64,000 nucleotides of DNA from Rhodoferax sp. (GCA_029865845.1 JARXAM010000023.1:50663-114662); one strand, 5' to 3'; shown: positions 50,618 through 58,316, numbered from the stretch's first letter. Notes: a model not told the origin generated them from the sequence alone. Translations and numbers: made by a program.

Positions 50618-52096
50618 TCAATCGCGCGCGGCCCACTCCACCAGGGCTTCCACGGCCGGTCGGGCTTCTTCCGCGCGGGGATGGTTGACAAACGCCACCA
50701 GCACATAGCGTTTGCCACTTTGTGCGTGCACATAGCCTGCCAAGGCAACCACGCCGTTGAGGCTGCCGGTTTTCAGGTGGGCCACGCCGGCGCGGGGTGT
50801 TTTCAGTCGTCTGAGCGTGCCGTCAACGCCGCTGATGGGCAGCGAGGACATGAGCTCGGGCATGAACGGTGCCGCATAGGTTTTGAGCAATAAACGGCCC
50901 ATCGCCTGCGCCGAGATGCGCTCATGGCGCGAGAGGCCGGAGCCGTTGTCCACCGTGGGCGCATCGTCGTCGCCCAACCACCCTTTCCACCACCGTTGCA
51001 CGCGCGTGCGGCTGGCAGCAAAGCTCCCGGCAGGCAGTTGTACGTTGGCCACCACATCGGGCGGCAGGCCCGGGGGCGTGTCTGCCACGCGGCCCAGGGT
51101 CAGAAACACCTGCTGGGCCATGACGTTGTTGCTGAATTTGTTGATGTCGCGAATCAGCTCTGCCAGGGGGGCAGAGGTAGTAACCAGAGTGGGTTTGCGG
51201 ACCAGCAAGCCCTCCGGTACCGTACCGCGCCGCACCTGTCCCCGCAACACGCCGCCCATGCTCTCCCACATGCCCCGCACGGCCCGTGTGCCAAACAGTT
51301 GGGGGTCTGCATACGCCACAGGCCACGCCCGCTCTTCACACGCCGCCGGATAGCTTCCTGCAAATTGGACGCGCAGCGGGTTGGAAAAGTCCGCCCGCAG
51401 TGCCGCCCGGTAGTCTCCACATTCCGCAGGTTTGGTACTGAGCGCTACCGTGGATGGCAGGGCCACGCCCGCCAGTGGCGGGTCGTACTGCACATACGCT
51501 ACCTTGCCTTCTGGGCTTGGCGTAAATGTCATGACCATGGAGTGAAAGTTCAGCAGCAAGGCATCGGGTGCCACGTTGTAGGGGCGCTGGCCTTCGCCAT
51601 CGAACGCGGCGGGGTTGGGGGGCGGCAGGTCCCACGCGTCATGGTCCAGCACCACATCGCCGGTAATGGTCTGGATACCCAGCCCTTGCACCCGGCGCAG
51701 CAGCAGCCACAAGCGCTCCATGACCAGCTTGGGGTCCCCCAAGCCTTTGAGGTACACATCGCCTTGCAGCACCCCCTTGTGCACCTTGCCGTCTACGTAC
51801 ACCGGGGTGGCCCAGGTGTAGGCCGGGCCCAGCAGGTCCAGGGCTGCCACGGTGGTCACCAGTTTCATGGTGGAAGCCGGGTTCATCGGGGCATTGCTGC
51901 GGTGCGCGAGTCGGGGGGGCGTGCCGCCTTGGGCATCCGTCACCAAAAACGACACCGCGTCCAGCGGCACTTTCGCGCGGGTTAGCGCGGCGTCAACCTC
52001 GGGCGGGAGGGCTTGGGCGGTGGCGCTGGCAGAGAACAGCGTTGTTGTGAACAGCGCGGCACCAAGCAGGACACAGCGAGTAAAGGTGAAGTGCAT
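50618..52096 (-). CDS. dacB: D-alanyl-D-alanine carboxypeptidase/endopeptidase (PBP4-type)
   Basis: NPASTMKLVTTVAALDLLG (SxxK), DNGSGLSRHERISAQ, AHLKTGSLNGVVALAGYV (KTG). Confidence 0.93.
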   Translation of the reverse strand: MHFTFTRCVLLGAALFTTTLFSASATAQALPPEVDAALTRAKVPLDAVSFLVTDAQGGTPPRLAHRSNAPMNPASTMKLVTTVAALDLLGPAYTWATPVYVDGKVHKGVLQGDVYLKGLGDPKLVMERLWLLLRRVQGLGIQTITGDVVLDHDAWDLPPPNPAAFDGEGQRPYNVAPDALLLNFHSMVMTFTPSPEGKVAYVQYDPPLAGVALPSTVALSTKPAECGDYRAALRADFSNPLRVQFAGSYPAACEERAWPVAYADPQLFGTRAVRGMWESMGGVLRGQVRRGTVPEGLLVRKPTLVTTSAPLAELIRDINKFSNNVMAQQVFLTLGRVADTPPGLPPDVVANVQLPAGSFAASRTRVQRWWKGWLGDDDAPTVDNGSGLSRHERISAQAMGRLLLKTYAAPFMPELMSSLPISGVDGTLRRLKTPRAGVAHLKTGSLNGVVALAGYVHAQSGKRYVLVAFVNHPRAEEARPAVEALVEWAARD

Positions 52097-52115
52097 AAGT
52101 GGATTCCGGAAACAT

Positions 52116-55100
52116 TCAGGGCTTGGCGCAGTCGATGACCAGTACCGTGATCTTGTGCTTCAACTCGCGGGGTACGGTGGCAGTCAGTCGTTGTTGGAGT
52201 TCGTGCGGGGTTTTGGGCTTGTGTCCGCCGTCAGCAGCTGTGATATTTTTGAAAGCTCCGGTGAACCAAAAGACGATGTACACCCCATACCCATCGCTGC
52301 CACGCTCGCGGCTGTATTTGGCGATGAGTTGCTCGTGAACGGCTTTCCATACATCTCTATGTGAGTCTCGTTTGATCTCTATGGGTATCTGGTTCGCTCC
52401 ATACATAACTTTGATGTCTGCGCGCTTGTGCTCTGCATACGCGCCCTCTTGCTCTGCATGGACCTTTAGTGGGCCAAAGACCTTCTTGAGGTCCGACAGT
52501 AAGGCGTCACGGCAGTCGTTTTCTAGCCGAGGTGTGTCCGCGTTCCAGTACTGTGTGTAGTCGTTGGTGTTTCCGTGGCGGATTTCTCTTGCCAGTAGGT
52601 TCAACTGGTCTACCACCAGCGCATGCAAGTCTGCTGCGTTGGCCGGCTCCAGGTTGGCCAGGGTGTGGCATACCTCGGTGACGGAAGCGGGACGGAAGAG
52701 GGCTTTGCGGCGCAGGATGTTTTGTTCATAGCGCGCACGTTGGAGTCTTTCTTCCCATGGCTTGAGGGCACGCCGCCCAATCAGGTTGTCCAGCAAGCCT
52801 TGTGCTTCGTTTGAAGGACTTGATGCGAGGGCATTGATGAGATGCTGCACATAGCGAACAGTTTCTCTGGCAGGGGTCACTGTGTGAATTTCTCCGGTTT
52901 CCGTATCTTCGGGTGGCGTGAAATTTGGACCCAAATGTTCAATGAATAGTGCCGCCGCATCTAAGCTCAGCGTTGTGGAGTCATCAGATTCAAGAAAATG
53001 TCCCCTCAGCAGATCGGATGCATGTGCAGCACGAGACTGGTTGGTTCCAAGGTACTGTTTCAATTGGCTCAAGTAGAGCGTTGGTGCAACCTGAACACCT
53101 GCGGTGAGCCAATACACGCGTTGTGCAACATCCAGGTTAGCCATCGCAAGACGTTTTGCGATGAGAGAAAGTTGCTCTGAACGCGGTAGCTCGGGGAGCA
53201 CGCGCTTGATCAGCGATCGCACATACTGCAGTTGGGTTGCAGTAAGTCTGGTTGGTAGTGATTCGATAATGCTGGCTGCGATGGGGAGGCGAATGGCGTG
53301 GAGGACATCGTCATGGATAAAAGCATTCAGCCCGGACAAATGTGTAGCCTTTTTTGAAAGTTCTTTTTGGACCAAGGTTTGCAAAATGGGGGTTACCAAG
53401 TCCGGCCGTTCTTCGGTTAACTTGGCGAACCAAGTTGGCGGCGTCCGGTCTCTGCTGGTCAGCCGAAATGCAATCAGTGTTCGAAGTAGTTCCTGACGGA
53501 GGTTCAGCGCATCTGACGGTGACTCTTGAAACCTCAAATGCATTGCTGCCAAGCACGCAGCCGAGATACGAAGAAATCGACTCTCTACATGCAAATCAAG
53601 AATTTGCTTTGCATCCGGGAGATCAGTCCGATGCAAGCATTGGCGCAGCCCTTCCAGAGCCAAGTCCACCCAGTAGGTGTTTTCTTGGCAAAGTTTGAGC
53701 AATCTTTCCTCAGGGGATTTCAGGTTGCTGTTGTGCAAGGCATCCAGGTAGGCTTGCCCGATTTCTCTGAGTAAATCGAAGTGTGCTTCTTGGGTGGAGA
53801 GTTTGGGGAGCTCGGCGGCAAGAAACAGCCGCCTTTTTTGTTGGCGTTGCGTTGTCTTGTATGTGTTGTTCTGCTCGTTGATGGATAGCTGGACTTCATC
53901 AGGCGGGTAAGGTGACGACAAGATAGCGGTGTTGATCCAGTCGAGATCATTCGGGTGGTTTTCTGCCCATGACGACAAGCGATCGATTGCTGCTTCACTT
54001 CCGTCAATTTGTTTGGCAATTTCAAATGACTCGCGGATCAAGACCTTCCTCAGCTCTTCATTGCAGCTTTCGGCAAGGTGCAGATACCAGCTGGGTGCGT
54101 CGCTTGATTGGGGGGCGTTGCATAACGTGTTCCATAAGGTTTGCACGTACTTTCTTGCTAAACCTTGGGAGCCGTCAAACTTTGTTAGTCCGTATTCGAA
54201 GAGCGCTTTGTAATGTGCCGGGTGATCAATAAACCATTGGCTTAGTGCCTCGCGGTTGTCCTGTTCCAAGCCGTTTTCTCCGTAATCGCCCACGCCAAGT
54301 GATAGCCATTGGTAGACCGTTGCGGTGTCACTTATCTCGCCAAAATGAGTAACGGTTTCTACAAGCAGGTTCCCCACCATTGCAGATAGCTCATATTCAC
54401 CGCCGTCTGAGCTCAACCGGATGTTGCTTGTGACCAAGGAGTCCATCAGGTCGGGGAGCGCCTCGCGCGGTGTGTAACGCGACAGATGGCTCCAGAATTC
54501 CCATTGGCTGTTGTTGAGCTTGAGTGATCTGGGGGTGAAGTAGCCCCAGATTTCTTGGGTAGAGAGGCTGTTCGGATAAAGGTGCTTTAACAGCTCGCCC
54601 AATAGAGCGTCGTCACCGTCCTCAATGCTCTTGTTCCAGACTTGCTCCAGAAGTTCTCTTGTGATCGTCCAATCGTGGTTCGTTTGGCCTGTGATGCACA
54701 GCACTCCCAATGCGCTCTGCCGTATCTCCGAGCGGTAGGTCGCATCGCTGACTAACCGAACTAACTCGCCAGTCAAGCCCGGCATGGCTTGCCCATGCTC
54801 CATCGCCTCCAACACACAGTCCAACACCGCTTGGTGTGCGGGGCTGCGGTCAGGAGATTCGAGCCATTCCCGGAACGTGGCTTCCATGTCGGGTGTGGCC
54901 AATGCACCAAACGGTCTGCTGGCCCAGTTCTGGCTGCGAAAGTGCGCGTAGCGTTGGGCCTCGCGCTGCAAGGCTTGGAGGATGTGCTTCTTTTCGGCCA
55001 CGCTGAATCGCAACACATCGCCGTGTAGCACCAGCCCGAGTGCATCCTGGTCTATCAAGGTACGCCGGACGCTCTCATCTGTCACGACCGCCAACCATGC

Positions 55101-56156
55101 ATGCAACCCCCGCAGTTCGGGCACTACGCCACCGTCTTCGCCCTGGATGAGTGCGAGCACGCGGTTCGCGGGCAGGTGACTGCGTATCCGGTCGGCCAGA
55201 TACGTCGCGCCCAAATACTCCGCCACGGTGCGGTGCACGGGGGTGAAGTTCCCTTGGCCGTCGCTGGAAAAAAGGTGGGTATCTAGTGCTTTGTTGCAGG
55301 CATCCGTGCTCGGTGTGCCCGCACCGCCGGAAAGTAGCATGGTCAGCACCATCGTATGCGGGGTGTCCTGTTTTGGGCGCTGAAATGCAATGGCAGAGCT
55401 ACCGGATAGCAGCATGACTGCGCACAGGTAGCCTGCAGCATTTAAGAGCTGTGCATCGGGGATGGAGTTGCGGCGCTGCGCGTCGAGGTGAACTTGGTTT
55501 TGTTCTTGGACCAGTTTGGTGCAGGCTTTTTCGTACACCTCCGCCTTGCTGCGGGGCCAGCGCTCTGCGGAGTTGCCTACCGCCTCCACCAACATGCGCA
55601 GGGTTTGCGGGTTGGTGAGCAGGCCGCCCAAGTCTTTGTGATGGGCTTGGTCTACAAAAGCTTGTGCGTCTGCTTCGCTCGCTTTGAGCCAAAGGGCTGT
55701 GAATTGCAGAATCTGTGCATCGTTGAGTTCTGTCAGATGAAGCTCTGCAAACTCACCTTCGCCCGCCAGCCGCTCCAAGGCGTCGCTGTCGGTACTGCCG
55801 CGCCAGTCGGCTTCGCGGCACGAAAGGCGAAAGGGCGGGGTGTCCATAGCATTGAGTTTGATGCGGATGTCCTTCAAAGGGGATCGCCCCTCCAGTGCGG
55901 CCGCTTCATCCAGACCGTCAATGAAGATGGGGTGTCGGTAGCCGTCGGGCGGCGTGAGGTCCAGAAAGTCGCTGGCTTTGAGGTATTCGCCCCCTTCTTG
56001 TTCGGCCAAGATTTTGAAAGTCGTGGTCTTTCCTGCGCCAGGGTCCCCCAGCAGCACCCACGCGCGCAGGCTTTGGTAGTCCGCCAACGGCCTGGCCTCG
56101 GTGAGTGAGCCATCCGGCTTTCTTGCACAAACTGTCCGCTCGATGGCTAACCTCAT
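52116..56156 (-). CDS. NACHT/STAND-like P-loop NTPase with long helical region and C-terminal PD-(D/E)XK-like nuclease motif
   Basis: 1346 aa; Walker A VLLGDPGAGKTTTF, Walker B-like PIFIDGLDEAA, C-terminal RADIKVMYGANQIPIEIKRDSHRDVWKAVHEQLIAKYS...GYGVYIVFWF. Confidence 0.75.
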   Translation of the reverse strand: MRLAIERTVCARKPDGSLTEARPLADYQSLRAWVLLGDPGAGKTTTFKILAEQEGGEYLKASDFLDLTPPDGYRHPIFIDGLDEAAALEGRSPLKDIRIKLNAMDTPPFRLSCREADWRGSTDSDALERLAGEGEFAELHLTELNDAQILQFTALWLKASEADAQAFVDQAHHKDLGGLLTNPQTLRMLVEAVGNSAERWPRSKAEVYEKACTKLVQEQNQVHLDAQRRNSIPDAQLLNAAGYLCAVMLLSGSSAIAFQRPKQDTPHTMVLTMLLSGGAGTPSTDACNKALDTHLFSSDGQGNFTPVHRTVAEYLGATYLADRIRSHLPANRVLALIQGEDGGVVPELRGLHAWLAVVTDESVRRTLIDQDALGLVLHGDVLRFSVAEKKHILQALQREAQRYAHFRSQNWASRPFGALATPDMEATFREWLESPDRSPAHQAVLDCVLEAMEHGQAMPGLTGELVRLVSDATYRSEIRQSALGVLCITGQTNHDWTITRELLEQVWNKSIEDGDDALLGELLKHLYPNSLSTQEIWGYFTPRSLKLNNSQWEFWSHLSRYTPREALPDLMDSLVTSNIRLSSDGGEYELSAMVGNLLVETVTHFGEISDTATVYQWLSLGVGDYGENGLEQDNREALSQWFIDHPAHYKALFEYGLTKFDGSQGLARKYVQTLWNTLCNAPQSSDAPSWYLHLAESCNEELRKVLIRESFEIAKQIDGSEAAIDRLSSWAENHPNDLDWINTAILSSPYPPDEVQLSINEQNNTYKTTQRQQKRRLFLAAELPKLSTQEAHFDLLREIGQAYLDALHNSNLKSPEERLLKLCQENTYWVDLALEGLRQCLHRTDLPDAKQILDLHVESRFLRISAACLAAMHLRFQESPSDALNLRQELLRTLIAFRLTSRDRTPPTWFAKLTEERPDLVTPILQTLVQKELSKKATHLSGLNAFIHDDVLHAIRLPIAASIIESLPTRLTATQLQYVRSLIKRVLPELPRSEQLSLIAKRLAMANLDVAQRVYWLTAGVQVAPTLYLSQLKQYLGTNQSRAAHASDLLRGHFLESDDSTTLSLDAAALFIEHLGPNFTPPEDTETGEIHTVTPARETVRYVQHLINALASSPSNEAQGLLDNLIGRRALKPWEERLQRARYEQNILRRKALFRPASVTEVCHTLANLEPANAADLHALVVDQLNLLAREIRHGNTNDYTQYWNADTPRLENDCRDALLSDLKKVFGPLKVHAEQEGAYAEHKRADIKVMYGANQIPIEIKRDSHRDVWKAVHEQLIAKYSRERGSDGYGVYIVFWFTGAFKNITAADGGHKPKTPHELQQRLTATVPRELKHKITVLVIDCAKP

Positions 56157-57430
56157 GCTGCCTCTAGCCAGTGCGTTAGCGGATACGACAAAAACTCCGT
56201 CAGGTTTACGCCACCCGTGCCCACCAGCAGCGTGTTGCTGCCGTTGTGCTGCTTGGCGAACTCGTTCATACCGCCGAGGGCGCCTACGCTGGGGCCGCTC
56301 TTCACTTCGATGGCAGTGCGGCGCAGTGCGTCGTTGATGACAAAGTCAACTTCATAGGGGCTTTCGCGCCAGTAGCCGATCTCCTCATGGGGGCGAGCGC
56401 TGTTACAAAGGTGTGCGCCAACACTACTCTCTACCAGTCGGCCCCAGTAGCTGCGATCGGCTTGCGCTTGGGCAAATGTGTAGGGTGTGGCGCTGGACAT
56501 GAGCGCCGTGTTGAGTACCTGAAACTTGGGCGCCGACGCACGTTTGCGGGCTGCTCCTACGTGGTACTTTTGCAAGCCCATGAGCAGGCCCGCATTTCCC
56601 AGCAGATCTAGATAACCCGCCAGCGTGGTTTCGTTGCCCGCGTCTTGCAATTGGCCTTTCACTTTGCCCAGCGCCAAAATTTGGCCGGAGTAAATGGAGC
56701 CTAAGGTGAATAGCTGCTTGAGCAGCGCGGGTTTATCCACGCGCGCCATTTGAAGAATGTCGGTTTCAATGCTGGGCTGCACCAAGCTGGCCAGCACGTA
56801 GTTACGCCAGCGCTCTTCGTCTCGGATGAGTGGGGCGCTGCCGGGATAGCCGCCAAAATAGATGTACTCATGGAGGTTGAAGTCAAAGGCGTGGTGCATT
56901 TCTACAAAAGACCAATGTGCGGCGCGAATCAGCTCGTAGCGTCCGGTCAAACTTTCGGTCAGGCCCTTTTGAAGGAGAAGGGGCGAACTGCCCAGTAGCA
57001 CCACGTGCATGGGCAGGCCACGTGCGCGGTCGGCGTCCCATAGGCCCTTGACGGTGTCGGGCCAGCGGGGAATCTTCTGAATTTCATCCAGAACCAACAC
57101 GAACGGCGAACTCGGGTTCCTTTCATGGTGTGCTTCGCACTCCGCGCGAGCGGATTGCCAGGTCCTAACCAGCCACGCGGCATTGCGGGGGATGCCGTCT
57201 ATGTCGGCTGTTTCATACCCGTTGATTCCCCAAGGAGGCATTGACAAGTTGCGTGTCCAAGGCTCTCCATCGGGGTCTACCGACACAAAGCGGTGCGCCA
57301 GGTCTTCAATCGCTTGGCGAACCATCGTGGTCTTTCCGACTTGGCGAGGCCCCGCCACCATCGTTATGAAACGAGGGACTTCTTGCAGTCGGTTTTTGAG
57401 CGTTTGAACGTGTGGACGTTGAAAGTTCAT
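56153..57430 (-). CDS. AAA ATPase with DUF4143-type C-terminal domain
   Basis: 425 aa; Walker A VAGPRQVGKTTMV, Walker B FVLVLDEIQKIPRW, YWRESPYEVDFVINDALRRTAIEVKSG. Confidence 0.88.
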   Translation of the reverse strand: MNFQRPHVQTLKNRLQEVPRFITMVAGPRQVGKTTMVRQAIEDLAHRFVSVDPDGEPWTRNLSMPPWGINGYETADIDGIPRNAAWLVRTWQSARAECEAHHERNPSSPFVLVLDEIQKIPRWPDTVKGLWDADRARGLPMHVVLLGSSPLLLQKGLTESLTGRYELIRAAHWSFVEMHHAFDFNLHEYIYFGGYPGSAPLIRDEERWRNYVLASLVQPSIETDILQMARVDKPALLKQLFTLGSIYSGQILALGKVKGQLQDAGNETTLAGYLDLLGNAGLLMGLQKYHVGAARKRASAPKFQVLNTALMSSATPYTFAQAQADRSYWGRLVESSVGAHLCNSARPHEEIGYWRESPYEVDFVINDALRRTAIEVKSGPSVGALGGMNEFAKQHNGSNTLLVGTGGVNLTEFLSYPLTHWLEAA

Positions 57431-57460
57431 ACATTGTGAGTAAATTTACTCACAATGTAT
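57429..57460. promoter_or_regulatory. Perfect 32-bp palindrome at the start of the DUF4143/NACHT operon
   Basis: ATACATTGTGAGTAAATTTACTCACAATGTAT is identical to its reverse complement; includes first two bases of the start codon at 57430. Confidence 0.95.
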
Positions 57461-57483
57461 TCTCTTTGTGCTGGGTGCGTCAA
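57454..57483 (-). promoter_or_regulatory. Candidate sigma70-type promoter for the DUF4143/NACHT operon
   Basis: Minus strand TTGACG - 18 nt - TACATT; -10 box lies inside the palindrome. Confidence 0.45.
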
Positions 57484-57566: not shown

Positions 57567-58316
57567 ATGAACCTCCTGGCCCTGGACACCGGAACCGAAT
57601 ACCTCTCCATCGCGCTGCGCACCGGCGAGGCCGGGAGCACGCGGGTGGTGGAGCACCACGGACCTGGCGGTGCGAAGGCCTCTACCGATGTGTTGGCCGC
57701 TGTGCAGCGCATGGTGGAGCAGGCGGGCTTGCGGTTTAACCAGCTCGATGCCATCTGTTTCGGCAGTGGGCCTGGCTCGTTCACGGGGCTGCGCACCGCC
57801 TGCTCGGTGGTGCAAGGGCTTGCTTTTGGTGCAGATGTGCCGGTGCTACCGGTGGACTCGCTGCTCGCCGTGGCAGAAGACGCCCGTTGGCGCGCGGCAC
57901 CGCATGCCGCCAGCGTGCAGGTGACGGCCTTGCTGGACGCCCGCATGGATGAGATGTACGTGGGCGAGTACCTGTTTACCCAAGGGCACTGGCAGGTCGT
58001 GCAACCCGCCACTTTGTTGCGTCCGCAAGACCTGCATGTGCAGCAGGCCCATGCCAATGGGCCGCACCTGCTGGCGGGCAACGTGTTCGAGGTGTATGCC
58101 AACCACCTGCGTGCATGGGCTGCGCCCGCCCAACAGCGTGCGTCGGCCTTGCCCACGGCGGCAGCCATGCTGCGCATGGCACCAGCGATGCTGGCCCAAG
58201 GCCTTGCGGTCGACGCCGCATTGGCCATGCCCCGCTACATCCGCGACAAGGTTGCCAAAACCACCGCCGAGCGTGAGGCTGAGAAGGCCGCCGCCCACGC
58301 GGTTGCTGCACTATGA
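57567..58316 (+). CDS. tsaB: tRNA threonylcarbamoyladenosine biosynthesis protein TsaB
   Basis: NLLALDTGTEYLSIAL; ICFGSGPGSFTGLRTACSVVQGLAFG. Confidence 0.95.
   Translation: MNLLALDTGTEYLSIALRTGEAGSTRVVEHHGPGGAKASTDVLAAVQRMVEQAGLRFNQLDAICFGSGPGSFTGLRTACSVVQGLAFGADVPVLPVDSLLAVAEDARWRAAPHAASVQVTALLDARMDEMYVGEYLFTQGHWQVVQPATLLRPQDLHVQQAHANGPHLLAGNVFEVYANHLRAWAAPAQQRASALPTAAAMLRMAPAMLAQGLAVDAALAMPRYIRDKVAKTTAEREAEKAAAHAVAAL

Follow-up and report, generated by a model that had tools for sequence, protein, structure and literature searches.

A two-gene candidate defence operon pairing an EruA-like NACHT protein with a PDC-S01 ATPase in Rhodoferax sp.

Results

An EruA-like protein and an upstream ATPase gene lie between dacB and tsaB

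We analysed a window of 64,000 nucleotides from Rhodoferax sp. (GCA_029865845.1 JARXAM010000023.1:50663-114662), in which two overlapping genes stand between the core genes dacB and tsaB (Table 1). The larger is one uninterrupted reading frame, found where the first-pass annotation had placed a 1346-aa open reading frame; its strand, left unstated there, is minus. The NCBIfam profile EruA (NF058535, 'NACHT domain-containing antiphage protein') matched the protein at 945.8 bits (E = 5.4e-284). This match was collinear and full-length, with protein residues 7–1343 aligned to model positions 1–1317 of 1318; the first-pass annotation had missed that the family was already catalogued. By curated score, the protein falls about 54 bits short of the EruA cut-off of 1000 bits, a threshold that the partner-carrying clade straddles (members score 945.6 to 1067.6 bits). 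All 20 aligned homologs matched NF058535, and near-full-length matches above 890 bits occurred in 13 of 398 genomes in the order, 9 of them exceeding the cut-off.

Other resources were less informative for this protein. The window protein itself had no significant Pfam domain, NACHT included; PADLOC (2023) has no model for an EruA-like protein among its profiles, and none of its Avs models matched the window protein or its 20 homologs. No paper on EruA or HyoA was found in the open-access literature, so the 'antiphage' label rests on the name of the NCBIfam entry.

Table 1 Features of the locus, in coordinates of the window
Feature	Position	Strand	Basis
dacB, core gene flanking the insertion	50618..52096	-	start 19 bp past the EruA stop
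EruA-like NACHT-solenoid-nuclease protein, 1346 aa	52116..56156	-	single ORF; full-length NF058535 match
C-terminal PD-(D/E)XK nuclease-fold domain (predicted), residues 1146-1346, core about 1212-1342	52119..52721	-	model, PDB matches
D1247 ... E1260-I-K1262 catalytic motif (predicted)	52371..52418	-	invariant in 20/20 homologs and a second set of 14
All-helical HEAT-like solenoid, residues 456-1145, presumed sensor, exchanged segment	52722..54791	-	model; jump in synonymous divergence versus L002
NACHT/STAND NTPase region, about residues 1-360	55077..56156	-	model of 1-1150 matches NLRC4, NOD2, NLRP3; NACHT Pfam in 3/20 homologs
Walker B IFIDGLDE, residues 77-84	55905..55928	-	D80, D83, E84 invariant in 20/20
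Walker A GDPGAGKT, residues 37-44	56025..56048	-	G40, G42, K43 invariant in 20/20
ATGA start-stop overlap, partner/EruA	56153..56156	-	4-nt overlap in 11/12 pairs
Coupled partner AAA_14-DUF4143 ATPase, 425 aa (PDC-S01)	56153..57430	-	Pfam, PADLOC, pairing upstream of EruA
Perfect 32-bp palindrome overlapping the partner start, core TGAGTA-N4-TACTCA, candidate operator	57429..57460	.	sequence
Sigma-70-like promoter TTGACG-18-TACATT, -10 inside the palindrome	57454..57483	-	consensus match only
tsaB, core gene flanking the insertion	57567..58316	+	often directly adjacent to dacB in genus relatives

The NTPase comes first and the nuclease last

The wider Walker A stretch, LLGDPGAGKTTTF, occupies residues 35–47, and the C-terminal stretch RADIKVMYGANQIPIEIKR carries D1247, E1260 and K1262. 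In an alignment of 20 homologs, several only 18–24% identical overall to the window protein, the residues G40, G42, K43, D80, D83, E84, H308, D1247, E1260, K1262 and Q1276 were invariant. A further 14 C-termini, mainly from viral contigs, likewise showed no variation at the nuclease residues. Judged by this invariance across divergent homologs, the Walker and D…ExK motifs are not chance occurrences. All three lie where the first-pass annotation had claimed them.

In an AlphaFold2 model of residues 1–1150 (mean pLDDT 80.6), a P-loop alpha/beta domain leads into an all-helical solenoid, in agreement with the helix-rich middle noted earlier. The best fold matches of this model in the PDB were NLRC4 (2.5e-6), NOD2 (4.8e-6), NLRP3 (6.3e-5) and NLRP9, and along the solenoid it also matched HEAT-repeat proteins (CAND1, CRM1 and karyopherins); TM-scores were modest, at 0.10–0.28 over the query. 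Pfam NACHT was significant in 3 of the 20 homologs (best 2e-6). With its invariant motifs and fold match, the window protein thus has the NACHT NTPase with Walker A and B that is a feature of bNACHT proteins and NLRs.

The model of residues 1085–1346 (mean pLDDT 82.3) has an alpha-beta-beta-beta-alpha-beta core, as in PD-(D/E)XK nucleases, and its PDB matches were mostly PD-(D/E)XK enzymes (PspGI, Can1/Can2, Hjc, Mus81, RecU and EcoRV), each single match being weak (TM at most 0.32, E no better than 7.5e-3). This core fold, together with the invariant D1247, E1260 and K1262, is the feature that marks the PD-(D/E)XK superfamily, and the C-terminus is predicted from the model to be a DNA-cutting domain of that type. 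For both protein halves fold comparison alone worked, a plain sequence search against the PDB giving nothing useful for either. The first-pass annotation had anticipated both similarities, NACHT/STAND and PD-(D/E)XK, as well as the inverted order with the NTPase first and the nuclease last, which motif positions and models bear out. The domain order is NACHT, solenoid, nuclease, the reverse of the textbook bNACHT order; going by the alignment, it is common to the aligned EruA homologs and not specific to the window protein.

A second ATPase is coupled to EruA

The upstream gene encodes AAA_14 (3e-20) and DUF4143 (4e-22) domains. It matches the PADLOC PDC-S01 model PDLC04791 at 3.3e-159 and has both the domains and the model match of a PDC-S01 protein. 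Its Walker motifs and D362, E375 and K377 were invariant across eight partner sequences. Including the window, we found 12 pairs, spanning several orders, in which this gene immediately precedes the gene for an EruA homolog (the window, L002, L007, L008, L009, L010, L012, L013, L123, L126, L131 and L132; L123 is a viral-collection contig, L126 comes from another order of the class, and L131 and L132 come from a wider phylum sample). In 11 pairs the two genes share a four-base overlap (ATGA or TTGA), and the L123 pair abuts. Among the 398 genomes of the order, the partner profile exceeded 750 bits in seven, in each case directly upstream of EruA; the next matches scored at most 535 bits and lay away from EruA in the flanks read. 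The partner belongs to the locus as a conserved and coupled component and is not a bystander. The first-pass annotation was right about the gene positions in describing a protein that sat alone with an ATPase partner between dacB and tsaB, and these pairs revise its picture of a mere neighbour. As a separate observation, a caspase-domain (Peptidase_C14) gene lies directly downstream of a coupled EruA in L037 (6306–7700).

On the tree, coupled members cluster (2 changes versus 8.7 expected by shuffling), a pattern compatible with one gain and one loss. In L011/L041 the partner gene is deleted save for its 3' end (around 12026–12115 in L041), and EruA is intact, with its start-stop overlap with the remnant kept. 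Because EruA was retained there after the partner was lost, the partner is not strictly needed to retain it.

This loss bears on the rival reading that the EruA-like protein suffices by itself as a defence system, the partner being an independent PDC-S01 defence gene that simply rides on the same transcript. That reading also draws on the absence of the partner from most EruA-group homologs, namely the more distant ones and all plasmid copies read, and on PDC-S01 relatives that occur without EruA. The partner subfamily above 750 bits, always directly upstream of EruA, and the four-base overlap kept across several orders argue against it. We regard the single-gene reading as quite possible, if somewhat short of an even chance.

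A palindrome overlaps the partner start and a promoter-like site

The palindrome core lies 5–18 bp before the partner start codon, with 0–2 mismatches, in the eleven readable coupled loci, and 2–29 bp upstream of nine PDC-S01 genes without EruA. Random windows of the same loci reached two or fewer mismatches in 93 of 20000 draws, and, with up to 2 mismatches allowed, TGAGTA-N4-TACTCA occurs just once in the 2.7 Mb assembly. The phylum sample also includes three PDC-S01 genes from a different lineage (L128–L130), at which the palindrome was not found (3–5 mismatches). A literature search for the palindrome sequence found no paper. Across the collection, the core precedes PDC-S01 genes in L095–L104, L109, L126, L131 and L132, with or without EruA.

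We propose this core as a candidate family-wide operator of PDC-S01 genes, through which, we infer from its position, the partner may regulate its own expression. We also considered an RNA hairpin: the palindrome folds very well, yet transcription is predicted to start within it, which makes a DNA operator likelier.

A palindrome overlapping the promoter, a partner gene placed first and translational coupling would all suit an addiction or toxin-antitoxin-like module, with EruA as toxic nuclease and the partner as operator-binding antidote. However, partner-less EruA homologs are common, which indicates that the nuclease is not constitutively lethal, and the palindrome is likewise found in front of PDC-S01 genes that lack an EruA. 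We consider such a module unlikely.

Two related species share the operon at one site, with a diverged solenoid

Many relatives in the genus have dacB right next to tsaB, leaving an empty site. The operon was seen at this site only in the window genome (G000) and in G456 (L002), and a sample of 36 further genomes of the genus lacked it. Its local GC is low (0.51–0.60 versus 0.63–0.66). No shared target-site repeat of at least 7 bp was found at the insertion ends. In L086 (G412), the dacB–tsaB gap holds an EamA-like transporter gene, and similar-sized gaps occur in further genus members; insertions may recur at this position. EruA and dacB share a strand, and dacB begins 19 bp past the end of EruA (window 52096–52116), so dacB may now depend on transcription of the operon.

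We compared four-fold degenerate sites between G000 and L002, counting only codons for identical residues. The partner and dacB each differed at 45% of these sites; since their synonymous divergence is equal, the operon appears to have been inherited vertically for some time in the two species. Within EruA, 37% of sites differed in residues 1–450 and 44% in residues 1146–1346, versus 73% in residues 456–1145 (p = 2e-7 against dacB). Protein identity followed the same pattern, at 86% in the N-terminal, 43% in the middle and 82% in the C-terminal part. Because only identical-residue codons were counted, the divergent middle is unlikely to reflect misalignment. Fast protein evolution of the middle was ruled out, as synonymous divergence is raised too (73% versus 37–45%). 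These comparisons are most simply read as an operon that already occupied the dacB–tsaB site before the species split, with the EruA middle later replaced in one species by a long-diverged version. The solenoid-coding segment would then probably have been exchanged as a sensor cassette, and the exchanged solenoid probably marks where target recognition lies.

EruA homologs are patchily distributed among defence genes

Elsewhere, EruA homologs occupy unrelated sites; they are patchily distributed, in places plasmid-borne, and found beside restriction systems and other defence genes. On plasmids, the Pantoea homolog neighbours Ppl and Abi, the Agrobacterium homolog two restriction endonucleases, a reverse transcriptase and AbiEii, and the A. 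vitis homolog TIR proteins. Among other loci, L123 has HsdM (Pfam) and an HsdS-like ORF of a type I RM system, L042 has HsdR and RhuM/Fic, L034 has HipA and L038 has a NERD-UvrD protein. At the window locus itself no other defence gene adjoins, and this copy stands among core genes. Separately, TnsD/TniQ Tn7-like transposition genes lie beside an uncoupled EruA homolog in L044 (778–7616), which is possibly transposon cargo.

This distribution is partly plasmid-borne and linked to defence genes, and is not that of a vertically inherited single-copy gene. It joins the NLR and PD-(D/E)XK fold matches and the EruA profile in supporting the STAND-type defence candidate put forward in the first-pass annotation. 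A housekeeping NTPase-nuclease of the dacB–tsaB region, to which the shared site in two related species and the equal divergence of partner and dacB could point, is rejected as highly improbable on the empty sites, the patchy distribution, the low GC and the defence neighbours of homologs at unrelated sites.

Discussion

The window protein is an EruA-like bacterial relative of the NLR immune receptors of animals, in a two-gene variant, and very probably serves in anti-phage defence. The EruA group is already catalogued; here its member and a second ATPase make up a pair that is conserved and tightly coupled. We think it likely that the locus is a two-gene anti-phage operon that combines an EruA-group NLR, comprising solenoid sensor, NACHT oligomer and nuclease, with a dedicated partner.

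What the analysis shows directly are the genes and their domains, the invariant catalytic residues, the coupling, the palindrome, the solenoid exchange and the genomic setting. For the mechanism of the operon, we infer phage sensing, oligomerisation, DNA cleavage, an abortive outcome and a role for the partner. The HEAT-like solenoid (about residues 456–1145) would recognise a phage-made molecule, and recognition would switch the N-terminal NACHT ATPase to an oligomer. Oligomerisation would in turn bring together and activate the C-terminal PD-(D/E)XK domains, and the resulting DNA cutting would stop the infection or kill the infected cell. The partner would be made from the same message as EruA, in coupled amounts, and its most likely role would be to restrain expression and/or activity of the nuclease, with the promoter palindrome as operator. 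By analogy, solenoid sensing, NACHT oligomerisation and C-terminal DNA cleavage likely follow established NLR and bNACHT biology. The reversed order raises the question of how a NACHT oligomer activates an effector across a solenoid of roughly 700 residues.

More tentatively, the two genes might form a two-component NLR system. An operator-linked PDC-S01 ATPase would regulate or license a reversed-order NLR, and copies of that NLR resident at one fixed place in the chromosome would exchange their sensor solenoid as a cassette; we lean against this fuller version as a whole. The coupling of PDC-S01 to EruA gives a handle on the role of one PDC-S01 branch.

Among known families, EruA (NF058535) is closest, sharing the full-length match, domain order and motifs. 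Above-cut-off members such as L003–L006 have no partner, whereas the window clade has a coupled AAA_14-DUF4143 protein. HyoA (NCBIfam NF058534) resembles the window protein in part only (residues 131–775, 180 bits, far below its cut-off of 1200). Avs (AVAST) proteins combine a STAND ATPase with a repeat sensor and, in some, a nuclease. They resemble the window protein in these parts; however, the nucleases known in Avs proteins sit N-terminally, and the window protein had no PADLOC Avs match.

PDC-S01, abundant but uncharacterised, is reported to rank fourth among prokaryotic defences by frequency, and most such candidates await experimental validation (PMC12988326). The partner shares with other PDC-S01 members its match to PDLC04791 and the upstream palindrome, and differs in being the first gene of a coupled pair. 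The canonical bNACHT order is effector, NACHT, sensor (PMC12169576; PMC10952713), and bNACHT25 and bNACHT32 (clade 6), with a PD-(D/E)XK DNase at the N-terminus, bring about DNA degradation on phage infection (PMC12169576). The window protein, like these two, joins a NACHT ATPase to a PD-(D/E)XK nuclease. Its arrangement is not effector-first and sensor-last: where bNACHT25 and bNACHT32 have an N-terminal nuclease and a C-terminal sensor, the window protein has NACHT at the N-terminus (Walker A from residue 37), the solenoid in the middle and the nuclease at the C-terminus (residues 1146–1346).
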